This document shows, one piece after another, positions 6,075 to 45,351 of a stretch of DNA of 64,000 nt. The DNA lies in the NCBI RefSeq assembly GCF_003569915.1, contig NZ_KZ984456.1, positions 1 through 64,000 of the forward strand, in the 5' to 3' direction. The translations under genes were made by a program, and so were the position numbers. This stretch comes from Comamonas testosteroni (lineage in GTDB: Bacteria > Pseudomonadota > Gammaproteobacteria > Burkholderiales > Burkholderiaceae_C). The notes under the pieces are model-generated. The model made no database searches. It had not been told where the DNA came from and was given only the letters and a program-made list of their open reading frames with translations. The first letter of the stretch is position 1. Each line of letters starts with the position of its first letter.

Positions 6075-6767
6075 ATGACCTTCAAGCCTTTTTTCATCAT
6101 CGCCATGGCGGCTGTTTCGGCGGCTGCACATGCTGCGCGACCCATGAACACCGATGATGCGCGCATTGTGGATGCCAAGGCCTGCCAGCTCGAGAGCTGG
6201 ATCAAGCACCCCAAGGGGCATGCCGAATTCTGGGCGCAGCCCGCCTGCAACTTCACGGGCAATCTGGAACTGACCATGGGCGCGGCGCTCAGTCGCATGG
6301 ATGGCAGCACGCGCGCGAGTGCGCAGATGCTGCAGGGCAAGACGCTGTTCAAGACCATGGAGCCCAACGGCTGGGGTTGGGGGTTGGCTGCGGGCATGGC
6401 ACGTGACCCGCGCCGGGATGCGGGGGGCGGCCATGATATGTATGCCTATATGCCGACCAGCTTTTCCTTCAGCGATGACAAGTTTGTGCTGCACACCAAT
6501 GTGGGCTGGCTGCGTGAGCAGGGTTCGCGCAGCAATCGCCTGACATGGGGACTGGGCAGCGAGACCCAGTTGCAGGAGCGTACCTGGCTGATTGCCGAGA
6601 CCTACGGGCAAAACCGTGGCAAGCCTTTTTTCCAGTTCGGCGTGCGCCACTGGCTGGTGCCTGATCGTGTGCAGATCGATGCGACCTATGGCAACCGCAT
6701 GGGAGAGGGCAGCGAGCGCTGGTTTTCTCTGGGCTTGCGCCTGCTGACTCCCGCTTTTCTGCCCTGA
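6075..6767 (+). CDS. Exported hypothetical protein, probably an outer-membrane beta-barrel
   Basis: 230 residues. It has a signal peptide of about 20 residues (MTFKPFFIIAMAAVSAAAHA, cut after AHA). The mature part has alternating polar/hydrophobic strands rich in Gly and aromatics (WGWGLAAGMA, FVLHTNVGW, RLTWGLGSET, FFQFGVRHWLV, WFSLGLRLL), the pattern of a small outer-membrane barrel. One cysteine pair (ACQLES, PACNF) may form a disulfide. A good ribosome site (GGGAGG at 6062-6067) supports the start. No specific function is recognised. It converges with the DedA-like gene, whose stop is adjacent. Confidence 0.65.
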   Translation: MTFKPFFIIAMAAVSAAAHAARPMNTDDARIVDAKACQLESWIKHPKGHAEFWAQPACNFTGNLELTMGAALSRMDGSTRASAQMLQGKTLFKTMEPNGWGWGLAAGMARDPRRDAGGGHDMYAYMPTSFSFSDDKFVLHTNVGWLREQGSRSNRLTWGLGSETQLQERTWLIAETYGQNRGKPFFQFGVRHWLVPDRVQIDATYGNRMGEGSERWFSLGLRLLTPAFLP

Positions 6768-7295
6768 TCAGAACAGGCGGCTGATGATCTGGTGCAGACC
6801 GGCTGTCATCAGTGCATAGCGCAGAAACTTGCCAATCGCCATATAGAAGACGCAGGGCCAGAAGGGCAGGCGAGCCCAGCCTGCCACGGCGCATAGCGGG
6901 TCGCCCACCACGGGCAGCCAGCTCAACAGGCAGGCCTTGGCCCCGTATTTGCGCAGCCAGTAGCGGGCCAGCCGGTGCGAGCGCGACTGGTGGTGCATGC
7001 TTTTTTTCGCAGGCTCGCCATCCTTGTGGTGGCGCAGTTGGCGGGCCTTGCGCCAGGCTTTGTGTGCGCCCAGGCCCATCCACCAGCTGATGGCCCCGCC
7101 AATGGTGTTGCCCGCAGTAGCCACCAGCACGGCGGGCCAGAACAGGTGAGGGCTGGCCGTGACCAGGGCGGCGACCACTGGCTCGGAGCCCAGCGGCAGC
7201 AAGGTCGCCGAGATCAGGGCGACGACAAAAACCGTGCTCAGGCCCAGCTCGGGCAGGGCCAGCCATTGCAGCAACTGTTGAATCCACGCTTCCAT
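6768..7295 (-). CDS. YqaA/DedA-family membrane protein (VTT domain)
   Basis: 175 residues from MEAWIQQLLQWL. The sequence LISATLLPLGSEPVVAALV and GNTIGGAISWWMG are the YqaA hallmarks, and the re-entrant RYWLRKYGAKACLLSWLPVVGDPLCAVAGWARL segment (written here as its key parts KYGAKACLLSWLPVVGDPL and AGWARLPFWPC) matches the DedA superfamily core. Members are inner-membrane proteins implicated in lipid scrambling or membrane potential maintenance. A longer open frame continues upstream to 7451 but is not conserved and overlaps the promoter of the divergent gene, so 7295 is chosen. Confidence 0.8.
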   Translation of the reverse strand: MEAWIQQLLQWLALPELGLSTVFVVALISATLLPLGSEPVVAALVTASPHLFWPAVLVATAGNTIGGAISWWMGLGAHKAWRKARQLRHHKDGEPAKKSMHHQSRSHRLARYWLRKYGAKACLLSWLPVVGDPLCAVAGWARLPFWPCVFYMAIGKFLRYALMTAGLHQIISRLF

Positions 7296-17714: not shown

Positions 17715-17888
17715 GTGACCGACCCTAAAACTTGGATGTGTTTGACCTGTGGCTGGCTCTATGACGAGGCCCAGGGAAGCCCTGAACACGGTATTGCACC
17801 AAACACGCGCTGGGAAGACGTGCCCATGAACTGGACCTGCCCGGAATGCGGTGCGCGAAAAGACGATTTTGAGATGGTGGAAATCTGA
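17715..17888 (+). CDS. Rubredoxin
   Basis: 57 residues with a GTG start. Two CxxC pairs bind one iron: MCLTCGWLYDEAQG near residues 8-21 and TCPECGARKDDFEMVEI at the end. WEDVPMNWTCPECG is the classic rubredoxin core. If translation began at the internal ATG (17736) the protein would have 50 residues; the GTG form gives the MTDPKTW N-terminus usual in Burkholderiales. It is a small electron-transfer protein. It is divergent from thiD and 51 bases upstream of pilG, a pairing often seen in this order. Confidence 0.93.
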   Translation: MTDPKTWMCLTCGWLYDEAQGSPEHGIAPNTRWEDVPMNWTCPECGARKDDFEMVEI

Positions 17889-17939
17889 GCGGGTTCACCG
17901 CGCTATCCACAAAGAAAGATATCTGGGAGGAGTTTCACC

Positions 17940-18344
17940 GTGACAGCATCCAGTGCGCCCCTGAGGGTTCTGGTGGTGGATGACAGCAACACCATTCGCC
18001 GCAGCGCGGAAATCTTCCTCAAGCAAGGTGGCTACGAGGTGCTTCTGGCCGATGATGGCTTTGATGCCCTCTCCAAGGTCAACGACTACCAGCCCCAGCT
18101 TATCTTTTGCGACATTCTGATGCCCAAGCTCGATGGCTATCAGACATGCGCCATCATCAAGCGCAATGCCCGCTTTGCGAGTACGCCTGTGGTGATGCTG
18201 TCCTCCAAGGACGGTGTTTTCGACAAGGCTCGCGGCCGCATGGTCGGCTGCCAAGACTATCTGACCAAACCGTTTACCAAAGATCAACTGCTGCAGGCCG
18301 TGGAACAGTTCGGCAGGCAGTCTGCAGGTGTGGGAGCTGCATGA
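17940..18344 (+). CDS. pilG: Type IV pilus response regulator PilG
   Basis: 134 residues, single CheY-like receiver. The acidic pocket is VVDDSN, the phospho-acceptor is D58 in LIFCDILMPKLDG, and the lysine is in YLTKPF. The start is GTG behind AGGAGG-like sequence at about 17925-17932. PilG receives phosphate from ChpA and controls pilus extension and cAMP levels in Pseudomonas. The stop overlaps the pilH start by ATGA at 18341. Confidence 0.92.
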   Translation: MTASSAPLRVLVVDDSNTIRRSAEIFLKQGGYEVLLADDGFDALSKVNDYQPQLIFCDILMPKLDGYQTCAIIKRNARFASTPVVMLSSKDGVFDKARGRMVGCQDYLTKPFTKDQLLQAVEQFGRQSAGVGAA

Positions 18345-18706
18345 TGACAATTCAAAAAGTATTGGTCGTAGATGATTCCAAGACAGAGCTGATGGCTCTG
18401 AGCGATATGCTGCAAAAGCAGGGCCTGCAGGTGCGTACCGCCGAGAACGGCGAAGAAGCGCTGCAGCGTCTGGCCGAAGACAAGCCTGATCTGATCCTGA
18501 TGGATGTGGTCATGCCCGGTCAAAATGGCTTTCAGCTGACCCGTGCCATCTCGCGAGATCCTCTGTATGCCGATGTGCCCATCATCATGTGCACCAGCAA
18601 GAATCAGGAAACAGATCGCGTCTGGGGCATGCGGCAAGGTGCCAGGGGCTATATCACCAAGCCCGTGGATGCAGCCGAGCTGCAAGCCAAGATCGCAGCT
18701 CTGTAA
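18341..18706 (+). CDS. pilH: Type IV pilus response regulator PilH
   Basis: 121 residues, single receiver domain. VVDDSKTEL, the acceptor D55 in LILMDVVMPGQNG, CTSKNQETDRVWGMRQGA and ITKPV are present; the last two are PilH-specific. Two tandem ATGs (18341, 18344) are possible starts; the first overlaps the pilG stop. In the Pil-Chp system PilH opposes PilG, possibly as a phosphate sink for retraction control. Confidence 0.92.
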   Translation: MMTIQKVLVVDDSKTELMALSDMLQKQGLQVRTAENGEEALQRLAEDKPDLILMDVVMPGQNGFQLTRAISRDPLYADVPIIMCTSKNQETDRVWGMRQGARGYITKPVDAAELQAKIAAL

Positions 18707-34682: not shown

Positions 34683-34746
34683 CTTTGTTGGGTCACGCCA
34701 GTTTTTGGCTGCGCTGTACTATGTCGCGGTAATTCTTCACGAACTC

Positions 34747-35508
34747 ATGGCAAACGGCTTGCACAAAATCAAAAACAGTCTGCGTGCCATCTGGCGCGGT
34801 TTGCGGCTGCTGGCCCATGTGGGCAAGGGCGCGTGGATTGTGGCGTTTCGCTTCCCGCAGCTGCATTACTGGCAGCAGCATGAGCATGTGCAGGCCTGGG
34901 CCGCCACCTTGATGCTGCGCGCTGGCGTGCAGTTGCAGATCAAGGGCGAGCCTCCGGTCAAAGGGCCGGTCATGCTGGTCAGCAACCATATCTCCTGGTT
35001 GGACATCCCCATGATGCATGCGGCGCGCCACTGCCGTTTTATCTCCAAGTCCGACGTCAAAGGCTGGCCCATCATCGGCACGCTGGCTACGGCGGCGGGC
35101 ACGCTCTATATCCAGCGCAGTTCGCGCCGCGATGCCATGCGCATGGTCACGGACATGGAAGCCGCCTTCAAGCGCGGCGAGATTCTGGCCGTCTTTCCCG
35201 AAGGCACCACGGGCGACGGGCGCGAGCTGCTGTCGTTTCACTCCAACTTGCTTGAAGCGGCCGTGCAATGCGATGCCCCCGTGCAACCCGTGGGCCTGCG
35301 CTTTGTCGATGGCAAGACGGGCGAGACCAGCTACGCGGCGACCTATGTGGGCGATGAGACGCTGCTCGGCTCCGTCTGGCGTGTGCTCAGCTCGGACCAG
35401 TTACAGGCCGTGGTGCATTACGGCAAGCCAGAAACCGCCCAGGGGCGTGACCGCCGTGTCTGGGCCAAGGATTTGCACGCCGAGGTGGACAAGCTGCGCC
35501 AAGGCTAG
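34747..35508 (+). CDS. plsC: 1-acyl-sn-glycerol-3-phosphate acyltransferase (PlsC-like)
   Basis: 253 residues. It transfers an acyl chain to lysophosphatidic acid in membrane phospholipid synthesis. The four acyltransferase motifs are visible: NHISWLDI (H and D catalytic pair), the GTLYIQRSSRRDAM block, VFPEGTTGDG, and PVQPVGLRF. The N-terminal region holds a hydrophobic segment for membrane association. An open frame extends upstream through the palindromic element to 34588 but is not part of the gene; the ATG at 34747 is the best start. Weak SD (CACGAAC). Confidence 0.88.
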   Translation: MANGLHKIKNSLRAIWRGLRLLAHVGKGAWIVAFRFPQLHYWQQHEHVQAWAATLMLRAGVQLQIKGEPPVKGPVMLVSNHISWLDIPMMHAARHCRFISKSDVKGWPIIGTLATAAGTLYIQRSSRRDAMRMVTDMEAAFKRGEILAVFPEGTTGDGRELLSFHSNLLEAAVQCDAPVQPVGLRFVDGKTGETSYAATYVGDETLLGSVWRVLSSDQLQAVVHYGKPETAQGRDRRVWAKDLHAEVDKLRQG

Positions 35509-35543
35509 CTTGCGAGCCGCACAATTCCGTGTAGGCTGTGCCG

Positions 35544-36452
35544 ATGCACGCCAGAGTTCTGCGCTATCTCGATGAAGTGGTTCGCCGCGGCTCCATCCGT
35601 AAGGCAGCCGAGCACCTGCATGTTGCCCCAACGGCCGTGAATCGCCAGATTCTCGATCTGGAGGCAGAGCTGGGTGCACCACTGTTTGACCGTATTCACA
35701 AACGTCTGCGCCTGACACCTTTGGGCGAGATGGTGCTGAGCCATGTGCGCAGCACCTTGCGTGAGCATGCGGCGCTGCGCGAGCGCATTGCCGACTTCAA
35801 AGGCATGCGGCGCGGTGAGATCACCGTGGCTGCGACCTCGGGACTGGCGGGTTCCCTGCTGCCATCGCTGGTGCACGACTTTCGCAGCACCCATCCGGGT
35901 ATGGCCGTGCGTGTCATTGATCTGCCAACAGAAGCCATTGTGTCTGCCGTGGAAGCGGGCGAGGTCGATCTGGGTCTTGCCTACGATCTCTCTCATAGAC
36001 CCGGGCTGCGCATACTGGCTGCCAGCGAATGGCAGATAGGCGCTGTTCTGCCGACCAAGCACCCGATGGCACGCCAGTCCTCGCTGCTGCTCAGCGAATG
36101 TGTCGGGCATCCGCTGATATTGCCGGCGCCGTCTCTGACCATCCGCAGCTTGCTCAACGAAGTCTTTGTGCGCAGCGCCATCGAGGTCACCCCGGTGGCA
36201 GAGTCCACCTCCATGGCCTTGATACAGCGCCTGGTCATGCTCGGTGACGGCATTGCCTTGCTCAATGCGCTGGATGTGCTGGAGGAGCTCGATCGCGGAT
36301 CGCTCAGTTTTGTGCCGCTTCGTGATGCACATCTGCAGCGCCAGACCTTGACGCTGTTCGGGCGCAAGGGGGCAGAGCCTAGCGCTGCGGCTGCACTCAT
36401 GGCGCAAAGCATTGAATCAGCGCTGGCGCGGCTTTACGCCAGCAAGCATTGA
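35544..36452 (+). CDS. LysR-family transcriptional regulator
   Basis: 302 residues. The N-terminal winged helix-turn-helix is typical: LRYLDEVVRRGSIRKAAEHL then APTAVNRQILDLEAELGAPLF. The effector domain follows (GEITVAATSGLAGSLLPSLV at the start of the domain). A GTG two codons earlier is possible. It lies upstream, on the same strand, of a purine-type deaminase and an NCS2 permease, so it may control purine use; the effector is unknown. The 19-bp palindrome just after its stop may be its operator or that of another regulator. Confidence 0.88.
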   Translation: MHARVLRYLDEVVRRGSIRKAAEHLHVAPTAVNRQILDLEAELGAPLFDRIHKRLRLTPLGEMVLSHVRSTLREHAALRERIADFKGMRRGEITVAATSGLAGSLLPSLVHDFRSTHPGMAVRVIDLPTEAIVSAVEAGEVDLGLAYDLSHRPGLRILAASEWQIGAVLPTKHPMARQSSLLLSECVGHPLILPAPSLTIRSLLNEVFVRSAIEVTPVAESTSMALIQRLVMLGDGIALLNALDVLEELDRGSLSFVPLRDAHLQRQTLTLFGRKGAEPSAAAALMAQSIESALARLYASKH

Positions 36453-36457
36453 TTTTC

Positions 36458-36476
36458 TGTCCACATTTTGTGGACA
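36458..36476. promoter_or_regulatory. Perfect palindrome, candidate operator upstream of the deaminase gene
   Basis: TGTCCACATTTTGTGGACA: 8-bp perfect arms with a 3-base centre. It sits six bases after the LysR stop and about 80 bases before the deaminase ATG. Confidence 0.5.
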
Positions 36477-41148: not shown

Positions 41149-41244
41149 CTGGCCAAAAGCTTCGTTCCTAAGTCTGGCCTAAGTGTTGCGGTTCAAACTG
41201 CCTTTCAACGACACCGCTTGTGGTGTATCTCTGAAAGGTTTGCC

Positions 41245-42795
41245 ATGAACACATTTCTGTCCACACCGCGCCGACTGGTCATGGCGCTGGTCGCTGCCGG
41301 AGCCATTGGCGCGCTGGGCGCAACCGGCGCGGGACTGGTGGGCGCACGCAGCGATGCGCATGCTCAGGCTGCAGCGACTTCTACATCTATTCCTGCTGTA
41401 GTCAGCAATCTGCCTGCGGTCAGTGCTCCTGATTTTGCGAGCATCACGGCCCGTAACGGCGCCGCCGTGGTCAATATCAGCGTGGTGGGTTCATCGCGCT
41501 CCATGGGGGGTGACGAGGGCGATGAGGCGGCCGAGCGTCAGGGCTCGCGTCAGGCTCCGCAGGGCATAGATCCCGACGATCCCTTCTTTGAATTCTTCCG
41601 CCAGTTCGGCTTGCCCGGAATGCCCGGCGGCATGGGTTCCGGCCCGCGCGCGCAGCAGCCCGATACGCCCATGCGCGGCGAAGGCTCGGGCTTTATTGTC
41701 TCCAGTGACGGTGTGATTCTGACCAACGCCCATGTGGTGCGCGGCGCCAAGGAAGTGACCGTCAAGCTCACCGACCGCCGCGAATTCAGCGCCAAGGTGC
41801 TGGGCTCGGACCCCAAGACTGATGTGGCCGTGCTCAAGATTGAGGCCAAGGGCCTGCCCACGGTCAAGCTGGGCCAGACCAGCCAGCTGCGCGTGGGCGA
41901 CTGGGTACTGGCCATTGGCTCGCCTTTTGGCTTTGAAAACAGCGTGACGGCGGGCGTGGTCAGCGCCAAGGGCCGTTCGCTGCCCGATGATTCCTTTGTG
42001 CCCTTCCTGCAGACCGATGTGGCCATCAACCCCGGCAACTCGGGCGGCCCGCTGTTCAATGCGCAAGGCGAGGTCGTGGGCATCAACAGCCAGATCTACA
42101 CCCGCTCGGGCGGGTATCAGGGCGTGTCCTTTGCCATTCCCATCGAGCTGGCAACGCGGGTGCAGCAGCAGATTCAGACCAATGGCAAGGCGCAGCACGC
42201 CAAGCTGGGCGTGAGTGTGCAGGAGGTCAATCAGGCGTTTGCCGACTCCTTCAAGCTCGACAAGCCCGAGGGCGCGCTGGTGGCCAGTGTGGACAAGAAC
42301 GGCCCCGCCGCCGCAGCTGGGCTTGAGCCCGGCGACGTGGTACGCAAGGTCGATGGCACGCCCATCGTCAGCTCGAGCGATCTGCCCGCATTCATTGGTC
42401 AGGCGCTGCCAGGGCAGAAGGTGTCATTGGAAGTGTGGCGCAAGGGCGAAGCCAAAACGCTGAGTGCCACGCTGGGCGACGCCAGCGACAAGGCCAGCAA
42501 GACGGCCCAAAGCGCACCCGATGCAGGCAAGGGCAAGCTGGGCCTGGCGCTGCGCCCGCTGCAGCCTGAGGAGAAAAAGCAGATTGGCGTGGAGTCCGGG
42601 CTGGTCGTGGCCCAGTCCAGCGGCCCGGCAGCGGCAGCAGGCATTACTCAGAATGATGTGCTGCTGTCCATCAATGGCACGCCTGCGGCCAATGTGGACG
42701 AGGTGCGTGCCGCAGTCGCCAAGGCCGATAAAACCGTGGCCGTGCTCATCTGGCGTGATGGCAACAAGATTTTTGTGCCCGTGCGGCTGGGTTGA
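41245..42795 (+). CDS. DegP/HtrA-type periplasmic serine protease (Do family)
   Basis: 516 residues. A signal peptide of about 40 residues ends DAHAQA. The trypsin-like domain has the triad H163 (LTNAHVV), D193 (PKTDVAVL) and S266 (PGNSGGPL), with GEGSGFIVSSDGVILTNAHV as the family start. Two PDZ domains follow at about residues 305-395 and 420-510. A glycine/proline-rich stretch (FFEFFRQFGLPGMPGGMG) precedes the protease domain, as in MucD-like proteins. It degrades or refolds damaged envelope proteins. No anti-sigma genes adjoin it. Confidence 0.93.
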   Translation: MNTFLSTPRRLVMALVAAGAIGALGATGAGLVGARSDAHAQAAATSTSIPAVVSNLPAVSAPDFASITARNGAAVVNISVVGSSRSMGGDEGDEAAERQGSRQAPQGIDPDDPFFEFFRQFGLPGMPGGMGSGPRAQQPDTPMRGEGSGFIVSSDGVILTNAHVVRGAKEVTVKLTDRREFSAKVLGSDPKTDVAVLKIEAKGLPTVKLGQTSQLRVGDWVLAIGSPFGFENSVTAGVVSAKGRSLPDDSFVPFLQTDVAINPGNSGGPLFNAQGEVVGINSQIYTRSGGYQGVSFAIPIELATRVQQQIQTNGKAQHAKLGVSVQEVNQAFADSFKLDKPEGALVASVDKNGPAAAAGLEPGDVVRKVDGTPIVSSSDLPAFIGQALPGQKVSLEVWRKGEAKTLSATLGDASDKASKTAQSAPDAGKGKLGLALRPLQPEEKKQIGVESGLVVAQSSGPAAAAGITQNDVLLSINGTPAANVDEVRAAVAKADKTVAVLIWRDGNKIFVPVRLG

Positions 42796-43108: not shown

Positions 43109-44646
43109 TTGGATCAGCAGCAATACAGCATGCAGGCATGGGGCCTGGGTACATCTTTCGGCCCGCGTGTCATCCTGGCTGAGGTGGACTTTGCGCTGCC
43201 TGTGACCGGTGTCACGGCCCTGCTGGGCCCGGCGGGTACCGGCAAATCCACGATGCTGCGAACGCTGGCAGGGCTGAACGATAGCAACCCGCGCTTTCGC
43301 CGCTGGGGCAAGGTGCAAATCGGGGGCCAGCCGCTCACTCAGAACAACCGGCCTCAACTGGTGCAGCAGCATGCGCGCCTGATGCGGGCCAATACGCTGG
43401 ACGCGCTGATCGAAATGGCCCGCCAGCGTGAACAGCGCTCGCCGCTGCAGTGGCGTGAATGGGTAATCGAGCAATTGCAGAAATACGGCTTTGCCGAGCT
43501 GATTCATATGCTGGACAAACCCACGATGGAGCTCAGCAGCGCGCCGTAGCCCTGCTGCGCGAGGCCTGGGCCAAGCCCGCCGTGCTGATGGTGGATGAGC
43601 CCACGGCCGATCTTGAAGGCTATGAGGCTTTTTTGCTACTCGATGTCATCAAGCAGGTGGGCCAGCACAGCAGCGTGCTGCTGATCACCCATCAGCAGCA
43701 GCATGCGCAGGCCGTGGCCCAGCAGATGATGCTGCTGGCCGGTGGCCGCATTCAGGAAGCGCGGCCCATGGCCGAATTCTTGCAGCGTCCCAATAGTGCT
43801 GCTGGTCAGCAGTTTGTGCGTACCGGAAGCTGCCATGTACCCATGCCCGGAACGCCCTTGCATGAGTTGGCGGACGATGTGCTGCCTCCGCCCCCGTTGC
43901 CTACTGCTGCGCTGGCTGCCATTGCCGAATTTGCGCAGCCCGAGGATGCGGTACCCGTAGAGGCTGCCGTCGAGGCTTCGGCTGAGCCCGTGCCAGCAGC
44001 CGAAGCTGAACCTGAACCTGCGCCTGTGGAGGCTGCCGCCTCTGTATTGCCTGTGCCTGACCAGAGCAGCCCGGTGCTGGCGCCAGCCCGGGCCTTTCAG
44101 CCGCGTCCGGTCAGCGCCTCGGTGTTGATGGAGATGCAGCCTTTGACACCAGCGCAGGATGCCGTACCCGCCAGCCGTGGCCCCAGCGGCTTTGCATGGC
44201 TGGTGCCGGGGCGCCTGGCTGGGACCCCCTGGCCGGGTGTGGTGCATGACATGGACGCCGACCTCAAGGCCTTGCGCCGCTGCGGTGTGACCCTGCTGAT
44301 CACCTTGACGGAGAAAGACTTTCCGCAGGAGGCGCTGGCGCGCAATGGCCTGAAGAACCTTCACCTGCCCGTCTATGACCACGAGTCGCCCAGCGTGGCG
44401 CAGGTTCAGATGCTGCTGGCGCGCATGTCCGCCGCGCTGCGCCGCGGTGAGGTGCTGGCCGTGCACTGCCTGGCGGGGCTGGGTCGTACCGGCACCGTGC
44501 TGGCTGCCTGGCTGGTGCGCGAGGGTCTGACGGCCGAAGAAGCGCTGCGCCGCGTGCGCCTGATCGATGCGCAATACGTGCAGTCACAGGTGCAGGAGGC
44601 CCTTCTCTACGAATACGAGAACGCTCTGCTGCAAAAGATGGTTTGA
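43109..44646 (+). pseudogene. PstB-like ABC ATPase fused to a DUSP23-like protein phosphatase, split by a frameshift
   Basis: The first part (43109-43549, TTG start behind GAGGGAGG at 43096-43103) has Walker A GPAGTGKST and LAGLNDSNPRFR, resembling PstB. It stops inside the ABC signature at ELSSAP. The second part continues in another frame with QQRAVALLREAW, Walker B VLMVDEPTADLEG and the switch histidine ITHQQQ. After a Pro/Ala/Glu linker comes a cysteine-phosphatase domain: FAWLVPGRLAGTPWPG, LLITLTEKDFP and the P-loop VHCLAGLGRTG, very like human DUSP23. Restoring 10 bases (one CAGCAGC copy plus GGC) would give LSSGQQRA and one 515-residue protein. Spans both frames; the phosphatase half may still be translated from an internal start. 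Confidence 0.78.
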
Positions 44647-44677: not shown

Positions 44678-45082
44678 ATGAGTTTGGATACTGTACTGAC
44701 GCAGGCTGTGGCAACGGTGCCAGAGTGCCTGGCCGCCGGCTATGTGGATGCTGCCTCGGGCATGCTGCTGTCGATCCGCACCGTGGATTCCCATCCGCGC
44801 GAAGTGATCGACCTGGTGGCTGCTGCAACCGCCGATCTGTTCAACGGCCCCAATGTGTCGATGATCGAGACGCTGTTCAAGCGCTCGCGCGGCATTACCG
44901 ACGACGGTCACCACTATTTTCAGGAGATCATCATCAACAGTGACAACCTGATCCACGTCTTTCTGCGCAGCAAGGCCGTGCCCGACTATGTGGCCGTCTT
45001 TGTCTGCCGCCGCACGGCCAATCTGGGCATGGCGCTGACCAAGGCGCGTATGGCGATGCCGGGCATCGAAGCCGCGGTGTGA
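44678..45082 (+). CDS. Roadblock/LC7-like conserved protein
   Basis: 134 residues. The sequence has VPECLAAGYVDAASGMLLSI, a central LVAAATADLFNGPNV helix, HHYFQEIIINSDNLIHVFLR and YVAVFVCRRTANLGMALTKAR. This fits the roadblock/profilin-like alpha-beta pattern of bacterial MglB-like proteins that pair with small GTPases or act as scaffolds, but no GTPase gene is nearby. From memory a conserved Burkholderiales family has this sequence without known function. It follows the ABC-phosphatase gene by 31 bases, so joint function is plausible but unproven. Confidence 0.7.
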   Translation: MSLDTVLTQAVATVPECLAAGYVDAASGMLLSIRTVDSHPREVIDLVAAATADLFNGPNVSMIETLFKRSRGITDDGHHYFQEIIINSDNLIHVFLRSKAVPDYVAVFVCRRTANLGMALTKARMAMPGIEAAV

Positions 45083-45086
45083 TGGA

Positions 45087-45162
45087 TACCCCCTGAGCGG
45101 CTTCGCCGCTTCCCCCAAGGGGGACAGCAGCCTCGCCGCGAGGCGGCTCTTGCTCGCTGCTT
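45087..45162 (+). repeat. Dispersed extragenic palindromic element, copy 4
   Basis: ACCCCCTGAGCGGCTTCGCC, then CCCCCAAGGGGGACAGCAGC and GCGAGGCGGCTCTTGCTCGC, just after the roadblock-like gene stop. It faces copy 5. Confidence 0.85.
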
Positions 45163-45172
45163 CTGATTTTTA

Positions 45173-45234
45173 GGGCGCGCCAGTTTTGAACGGCGCGCCC
45201 TTTGCTTTTTTGCGCATGGTTCAAAACTGGCGCG
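45173..45234. terminator. Hairpin pair with mutually exclusive stems between two palindromic elements
   Basis: Stem A is GGGCGCGCC (45173-45181) with GGCGCGCCC (45192-45200), followed by TTTGCTTTTTT, a plausible terminator. Stem B is CGCGCCAGTTTTGAAC (45176-45191) with its perfect inverse at 45219-45234. The two use the same bases at 45176-45181, so only one can form. Confidence 0.7.
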
Positions 45235-45248
45235 ACCCATCAGCGGGA

Positions 45249-45351
45249 CACCGCGCAAGGGCCGCCCCGCCGCGCTGGTGTCGTCCCCCTTCCCTAGCGC
45301 GAAGCGCGTAGAGAAAGGGGGAAGGCGCGTAGCGCCACAGGGGGTATCCTC
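45249..45351 (-). repeat. Dispersed extragenic palindromic element, copy 5 (inverse)
   Basis: Inverse strand reads ACCCCCTGTGGCGCTACGCG, then CCCCCTTTCTCTACGCGCTT and GGCCCTTGCGCG. It lies immediately upstream of the response regulator, so that gene's promoter must lie inside or before it. Confidence 0.8.

Follow-up and report, generated by a model that had tools for sequence, protein, structure and literature searches.

The stretch of DNA analysed here (64,000 nucleotides of Comamonas testosteroni, hereafter the window) is part of contig 18 of a 4.94-Mb draft assembly of 92 contigs. At 43109–44646 it holds one gene that is spread over two overlapping open reading frames (ORF1 and ORF2; Table 1). 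An htrA-type protease gene lies on one side of this locus, and the other flank carries, as judged by eye, two-component-system-like genes. Immediately downstream sits a small intact partner gene (c1) with its own GAGG-type site. Between c1 and the response regulator gene, a palindrome-rich and repeat-like segment was also seen by eye.

Table 1. Features of the split gene and its surroundings, in window coordinates.
Feature	Position	Strand	Basis or remark
htrA-type protease gene	41218..42795		
Start region of the fusion gene: Shine-Dalgarno-like GAGG, TTG start codon	43100..43111	+	sequence
ORF1: Walker A and Q-loop half (the first) of the ABC ATPase domain	43109..43549	+	Pfam ABC_tran (residues 24–130, E 9.7e-10); TTG start at 43109, TAG stop at 43547–43549
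Walker A	43226..43252	+	ORF1
ORF2: remainder of the ABC domain, linker, DUSP23-like phosphatase	43459..44646	+	frame –1 relative to ORF1
Deletion junction in the C-loop; single copy left of the CAGCAGCG direct repeat	43532..43547	+	comparison with G438
Walker B	43582..43602	+	ORF2
ATG in the ORF2 frame	43588	+	38 nt beyond the ORF1 stop
Switch His codon	43690..43692	+	ORF2
Dual-specificity phosphatase domain	44185..44622	+	Pfam PTP-SAK (E 2.1e-20), DSPc (E 1.5e-11)
General-acid Asp codon	44377..44379	+	ORF2
HCLAGLGRT	44464..44490	+	ORF2
Partner gene c1, intact; encodes 134 aa with a predicted roadblock/LC7 (MglB-like) fold	44678..45082	+	
Palindrome-rich, repeat-like DNA	45083..45345		by eye

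The Pfam ABC_tran match is divided between ORF1 and ORF2, and the phosphatase motifs run uninterrupted in the latter (DSPc scoring 44.6 bits vs. a Pfam cut-off of 33.5). Both frames overlap by approximately 90 nt. The likeness of ORF2 to the fusion protein starts only at the junction (ca. 43534–43541), and the GC content by codon position changes phase at ca. 43530–43590. The initial annotation had described an ABC ATPase fused to a DUSP23-like phosphatase, with Walker A in one frame and Walker B, the switch histidine and the HCxxGxGRT motif in the next. The open reading frame coordinates and Pfam matches agree with that division, and the family profile matched both PstB (9k3x, E 2e-30) and DUSP23 (2img/4erc, E 5e-26). 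DNA and protein searches of the window's genome revealed no second, intact copy of the fusion, and a search of a plasmid set with the 43300–43700 region returned no match.

To place the split gene among its relatives, a DNA search was run over 61 genomes. It matched 40 of them, often over short ABC stretches; apart from the window's genome, 21 genomes gave a usable match. In each of these 21 relatives the gene is a single open frame with both domains, with a length of 460–522 codons from the start chosen by script; this start (picked by pattern) is a TTG at the same place in 15 and a GTG in the 6 divergent ones. A protein search subsequently located the fusion gene in 32 of 53 genomes of the genus. 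All 31 other gene-bearing genomes cross the C-loop in one open frame (22 with one near-full-length match, 8 divergent ones in which a single open frame gives two matches, and G438, of which the match ends at residue 222, i.e., the end of the locus, yet is open across the C-loop), and only the window's genome is split. Relatives sharing the two-frame layout, which the initial annotation had named as the observation that would count against a break, were looked for in these 31 genomes and not found. A scan of named genomes showed the fusion in Acidovorax, Giesbergeria, Hydrogenophaga, Methylotenera, Acidocella, Frateuria and others as well. Of the 48 loci returned, three with a match to the ABC domain only (L076–L078) were dropped. 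The 45 kept comprise 40 that passed a simple fused-frame test, two fused loci with a Walker A variant (L040 and L061) and three showing only the phosphatase end, cut at the locus edge (L066, L074 and L075); 36 of the 45 entered the motif alignment of fused relatives. Sequence comparison confirms that the gene normally encodes one fused ABC ATPase–phosphatase protein, of which the window copy appears to be a broken member.

The nature of the break emerged from the letters of G438. In this intact relative the junction reads CAGCAGCG-TG-CAGCAGCG, i.e., the repeat is doubled at offset 10, within the C-loop codons CTC AGC AGC GTG CAG CAG CGC GCC GT. The window's 16 letters at 43532 (CTCAGCAGCGCGCCGT) equal the 26 letters of G438 minus 10, and removal of ten letters from G438 gives the window letters wherever it starts among 9 equivalent positions, which is what an 8-base direct repeat predicts. 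In the coding DNA of 23 relatives, offset-10 repeats of at least 8 bases start at ca. 9e-5 of positions. Among the closest relatives (G430, 78% DNA identity; L035, 77%), L035 carries a perfect 2 × 10 bp tandem of AGCAGCGTGC at the junction, and L131 is apparently the same locus as L035. Offset-10 repeats of 7 and 8 bases occur in L130 and G438, respectively, and in the other relatives listed the repeat is at most 5 bases. The loss of ten bases between direct repeats is thus well supported by these alignments. It matches the site and size of the gap that had been proposed from the window alone, and also the idea of a direct-repeat deletion, with the repeat being CAGCAGCG plus TG instead of CAGCAGC. 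The proposed restoration to LSSGQQRA via an added GGC did not stand: the family C-loop is of the LSxVQQR type (codons for L-S-x-V-Q-Q-R or near kin), GTG, CTG, ATG or the like (Val, Leu or Met) occupies the glycine position, GGC occurs in no relative seen, and the second LSGGQ glycine is missing in 36/36 aligned relatives. The window C-loop is additionally cut by the deletion.

With regard to the age of the break, the window departs at three real sites (Y70I, L217M and A347P) among 163 columns that are invariant in the 21 relatives (the script listed seven departures, of which residue 1 was an alignment artefact and three fell at the junction trimmed from both pieces). When each relative was left out in turn, it showed 0–7 departures, mostly 0–1 (with 4 for L015, 7 for L016, 7 for L020 and 2 for L022). 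The dN/dS ratio before and after the break was 0.135 and 0.130 vs. L035, and 0.196 and 0.098 vs. L031, compared to 0.159 and 0.087 for the same two parts of the intact L035–L031 pair, although dS is near saturation and a break of modest age would escape detection by this measure. An old pseudogene was rejected, as no decay was seen in either the invariant columns or dN/dS. Because both halves look normally constrained, the break seems to be either recent or an error of the draft assembly.

In the latter case, the organism would have the ten bases and an intact gene, and assembly or base-calling would have dropped the bases at a short tandem repeat. A draft of 92 contigs, the normal constraint on both halves, an intact and highly conserved c1, and a site that is intact in all 31 other genomes would all fit such a loss. 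However, the fusion gene is the only gene in the window that is split vs. both G029 and G015 (33 and 40 orthologues, respectively), and an 8-base repeat at a 10-base offset is far shorter than the words usually employed in assembly. We regard an assembly loss as unlikely, and a repeat-mediated 10-base deletion in the cell as probable. Four further apparent splits occur in the window, each vs. one relative only. Two of those vs. G029 involve N-termini alone, and a third (34741–36464, vs. G029) was rejected, since it lies antisense to two longer plus-strand frames with protein-like sequence. The fourth, a minus-strand frame at 17762–18350, is seemingly split vs. G015 only and may be antisense.

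Two other accounts would leave the two-frame layout functional. Programmed –1 frameshifting, or two functional proteins made from separate starts, could exploit the overlap of the frames and the ATG in the ORF2 frame, but is very improbable. No in-frame slippery heptamer was found in 43459–43549 (as the window alone had already suggested); AAACCCA at 43517, the sole XXXYYYZ string there, does not sit in frame. In addition, the layout recurs in 0/31 other genomes, a –1 shift would produce a protein with three residues too few around the C-loop, and no good ribosome-binding site was seen by eye upstream of 43459 or 43588. Recoding was accordingly rejected on the heptamer and the layout. Similarly, on–off switching of the gene within the population by a contingency tandem repeat could be read from a 10-bp unit that is not a multiple of three, from the two perfect units of L035 and from the shorter repeats at the same offset in L130 and G438, but two repeat units mutate slowly, one unit cannot slip back, and the other listed relatives lack a comparable repeat, making this account just as hard to credit. 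Even jointly, recoding and switching deserve little weight.

In the intact family, the Walker A Gly-Lys-Ser and the Walker B Asp-Glu are present in 36/36 aligned relatives, the Q-loop Gln in 35/36 and the switch His in 33/36, and the general-acid Asp and HCxxGxGRT of the phosphatase are invariant in all 36 fused relatives. In the intact L031, ABC_tran (PF00005) scored 60.6 bits vs. a cut-off of 25. The nearest structures by sequence include DppD, PstB and amino-acid importer ATPases, next to the dual-specificity phosphatase 25xa and DUSP23. The earlier label "PstB-like" captures the nearest kin, though not membership: PstB (TIGR00972) is the best NCBIfam model for L031 at 102.8 bits, well short of its cut-off of 343.2, and the window pieces score 45.9 and 49.9 bits against it. 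The fusion family shares with PstB and importer ABC ATPases the Walker A, the Walker B with its catalytic Glu (36/36), the Q-loop Gln and the switch His, but differs in the absent second LSGGQ Gly, in the phosphatase domain it carries, and in having a recognised permease-like neighbour in 8 loci only. It likewise shares HCxxGxGRT and the general-acid Asp with DUSP23-type phosphatases (PF00782; PTP-SAK, PF22784), but here this module is the C-terminal domain of an ABC protein and not a lone enzyme. In ABCB10, changing LSGGQ to LSGVQ lowers hydrolysis, and in other ABC proteins such C-loop changes are reported to affect hydrolysis and not binding (both in PMC4459825). By analogy, an ATPase in which Val, Leu or Met replaces the crucial glycine of the C-loop would be expected to bind ATP, turn it over slowly and thereby serve as a switch, a role to which we give slightly less than even odds. 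Two further candidate roles were rejected. For a defence system, PADLOC gave no match to c1 and only weak, ATPase-type ones to the fusion, the best being mad3 (E 8.8e-12, in the ATPase region). For a "polymorphic toxin" phosphatase, the Pfam name Tc-R-P is a fold-family label, and nothing toxin-like was recognised among the neighbour genes.

The c1 gene, unmentioned in the initial annotation, accompanies the fusion in 42/45 loci (with L067, L072 and L073 having the fusion without c1), and other neighbours vary; within the genus, c1 and the fusion occur in the same 32/53 genomes. A roadblock fold was predicted for c1, a call that rests on one model. Searched by sequence, c1 found no Pfam or PDB match (some rows being weak and at chance level), and Robl_LC7 of Pfam matched 0/27 members at E 1 or better. 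According to PMC4316618, roadblock proteins are predicted NTPase regulators, an idea that goes back to Koonin and Aravind (2000, cited therein). In Delftia sp. PS-11, two c1 copies were observed, one either side of the fusion (L039:4331–4732 and 6507–6908); G439:C22:231298–233875 matches the L039 coordinates and looks like the same locus.

The constancy of this pair bears on what the intact fusion does. It could power an importer as its ATPase subunit and carry a phosphatase tail, and the roadblock neighbour would then be incidental. The importer ATPases among its nearest ABC structures and the PstB model would suit such a role, as would a gene near the pair in 8 loci (cluster c7), which from its sequence we take to be permease-like. 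Nevertheless, the window's neighbours include no recognised permease, the pair persists in 42/45 loci while other neighbours change, and the C-loop is degenerate in 36/36. An importer subunit is quite unlikely, and it seems reasonably likely that the fusion and c1 work as one regulatory unit. In three loci (L052, L055 and L069), two from Hydrogenophaga and one from Frateuria, the pair lies near two genes (cluster c13) that are presumably pilT/pilU-like, pointing to a possible tie of the pair to type IV pili.

A further association was found outside the locus. On contig 30 of the window's genome (G000, L111:4700–6142), and hence on another contig than the fusion–c1 pair, three genes stand in a row: one for a Ras-like GTPase, one with Robl_LC7 and a small third one. 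The third is roadblock-like by eye, and Pfam sees no roadblock domain in it. The GTPase was identified via its homologue L106 (Pfam Ras 25.9 bits vs. a cut-off of 21.6; 57% identity); the window genome's own GTPase is at or just below the Pfam cut-offs (Ras 20.4 vs. 21.6). The GTPase gene is present in 29/32 fusion-bearing genomes of the genus vs. 0/21 without the fusion, Robl_LC7 in 29/32 vs. 0/21 (being absent from a partly different set), and the third gene in 30/32 vs. 0/21. The exceptions are G021 (complete, 2 contigs) and G438, which have the fusion and c1 and gave no GTPase or Robl_LC7 match, G024 (no GTPase match) and G005 (no Robl_LC7 match). Since the genus genomes are related, this co-occurrence may reflect few events. 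As a separate observation, G002 holds a second GTPase copy with one TGA inside the frame (G002:C1:328829–329344).

At the class level, a c1 search of 369 genomes matched 23, of which G200 (E 1e-4, partial) was dropped as spurious. The remaining 22 comprise 8 with a close form and 14 with a distant form only. Robl_LC7 occurs in 71/369 genomes: in 8/8 with close-form c1 vs. 63/361 others, and in 21/22 bearing any c1 (the exception being G092) vs. 50/347 others. Nominal Fisher values for the co-occurrence data as a whole, genus included, were 6e-12, 1e-15 and 1e-6, with kinship ignored. The fusion adjoins the close-form c1 in all 8 genomes (the window's copy being the broken one), and Robl_LC7 lies less than 2 kb from c1 in four of these (G184, G370, G420 and G425). 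In G425 the Robl_LC7 match falls at a row consisting of the fusion, c1, a gene of ca. 211 codons, a GTPase gene (ATP_bind_1, 37.2 bits vs. 27) and the start of another gene. Moreover, 11 of 17 distant c1 homologues (from 15 genomes) directly adjoin a Robl_LC7 gene, with a GTPase-like frame in front for nine of those eleven, two of which were tested by Pfam (the neighbours of L090 and L091 were judged from Robl_LC7 match coordinates only). These data tentatively place the fusion–c1 pair in the same pathway as the GTPase operon, at somewhat below even chances.

MglA/MglB and conservon systems are already known (PMC13343842; PMC9481161). The pair described here differs from these modules in that the gene paired with c1 encodes an ABC ATPase–phosphatase and not a GTPase, and in that c1, which is not known to have GAP or GEF activity, goes unrecognised by Robl_LC7. 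No paper naming an ABC–DUSP–roadblock unit was found in the open-access literature searched. Each domain is known, and the linkage evidence suggests that the pairing of an ABC–phosphatase with a roadblock protein is a variant of GTPase/roadblock-type signalling. More speculatively, and with a good deal less than an even chance, the pair would be an undescribed module that combines a slow ATP switch with a naturally disabled C-loop, an MglB-like regulator and a built-in phosphatase, as an arm of a proteobacterial Ras-like GTPase/roadblock system.

Taken together, our preferred explanation (with a probability of roughly 70%) is a recent repeat-mediated break of the fusion gene, the intact form of which would be a regulatory unit with c1. 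Slipped-strand mispairing or short-repeat recombination between the two CAGCAGCG repeats would have removed ten bases in the C-loop codons, putting the halves in different frames, so that translation should stop at 43549 and the full protein be lost. The ATPase half encoded by ORF1, ending before Walker B, should be dead, and the phosphatase half would be made only from weak internal starts, such as the ATG at 43588, which could restart weakly. The likely outcome would be loss of the fusion, perhaps with a little free phosphatase half. In intact relatives, the c1 roadblock protein would sense or tune the state of the ATPase, and the phosphatase would have its phosphorylated substrate in the pathway of the Ras-like GTPase/roadblock operon.

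As a repeat-mediated deletion, the break is nothing unusual, and it may exist in one assembly only. Roadblock proteins have a known role in regulating small GTPases, and the present analysis links one of them to an ABC ATPase–phosphatase in several bacterial groups. If the pair cooperates, roadblock regulation would reach ABC-type ATPases in bacteria, and bacterial Ras-like pathways would gain a phosphatase in their vicinity. The protein family with its marker residues, and the GTPase operon that occurs with it, open this idea to tests in common laboratory strains.
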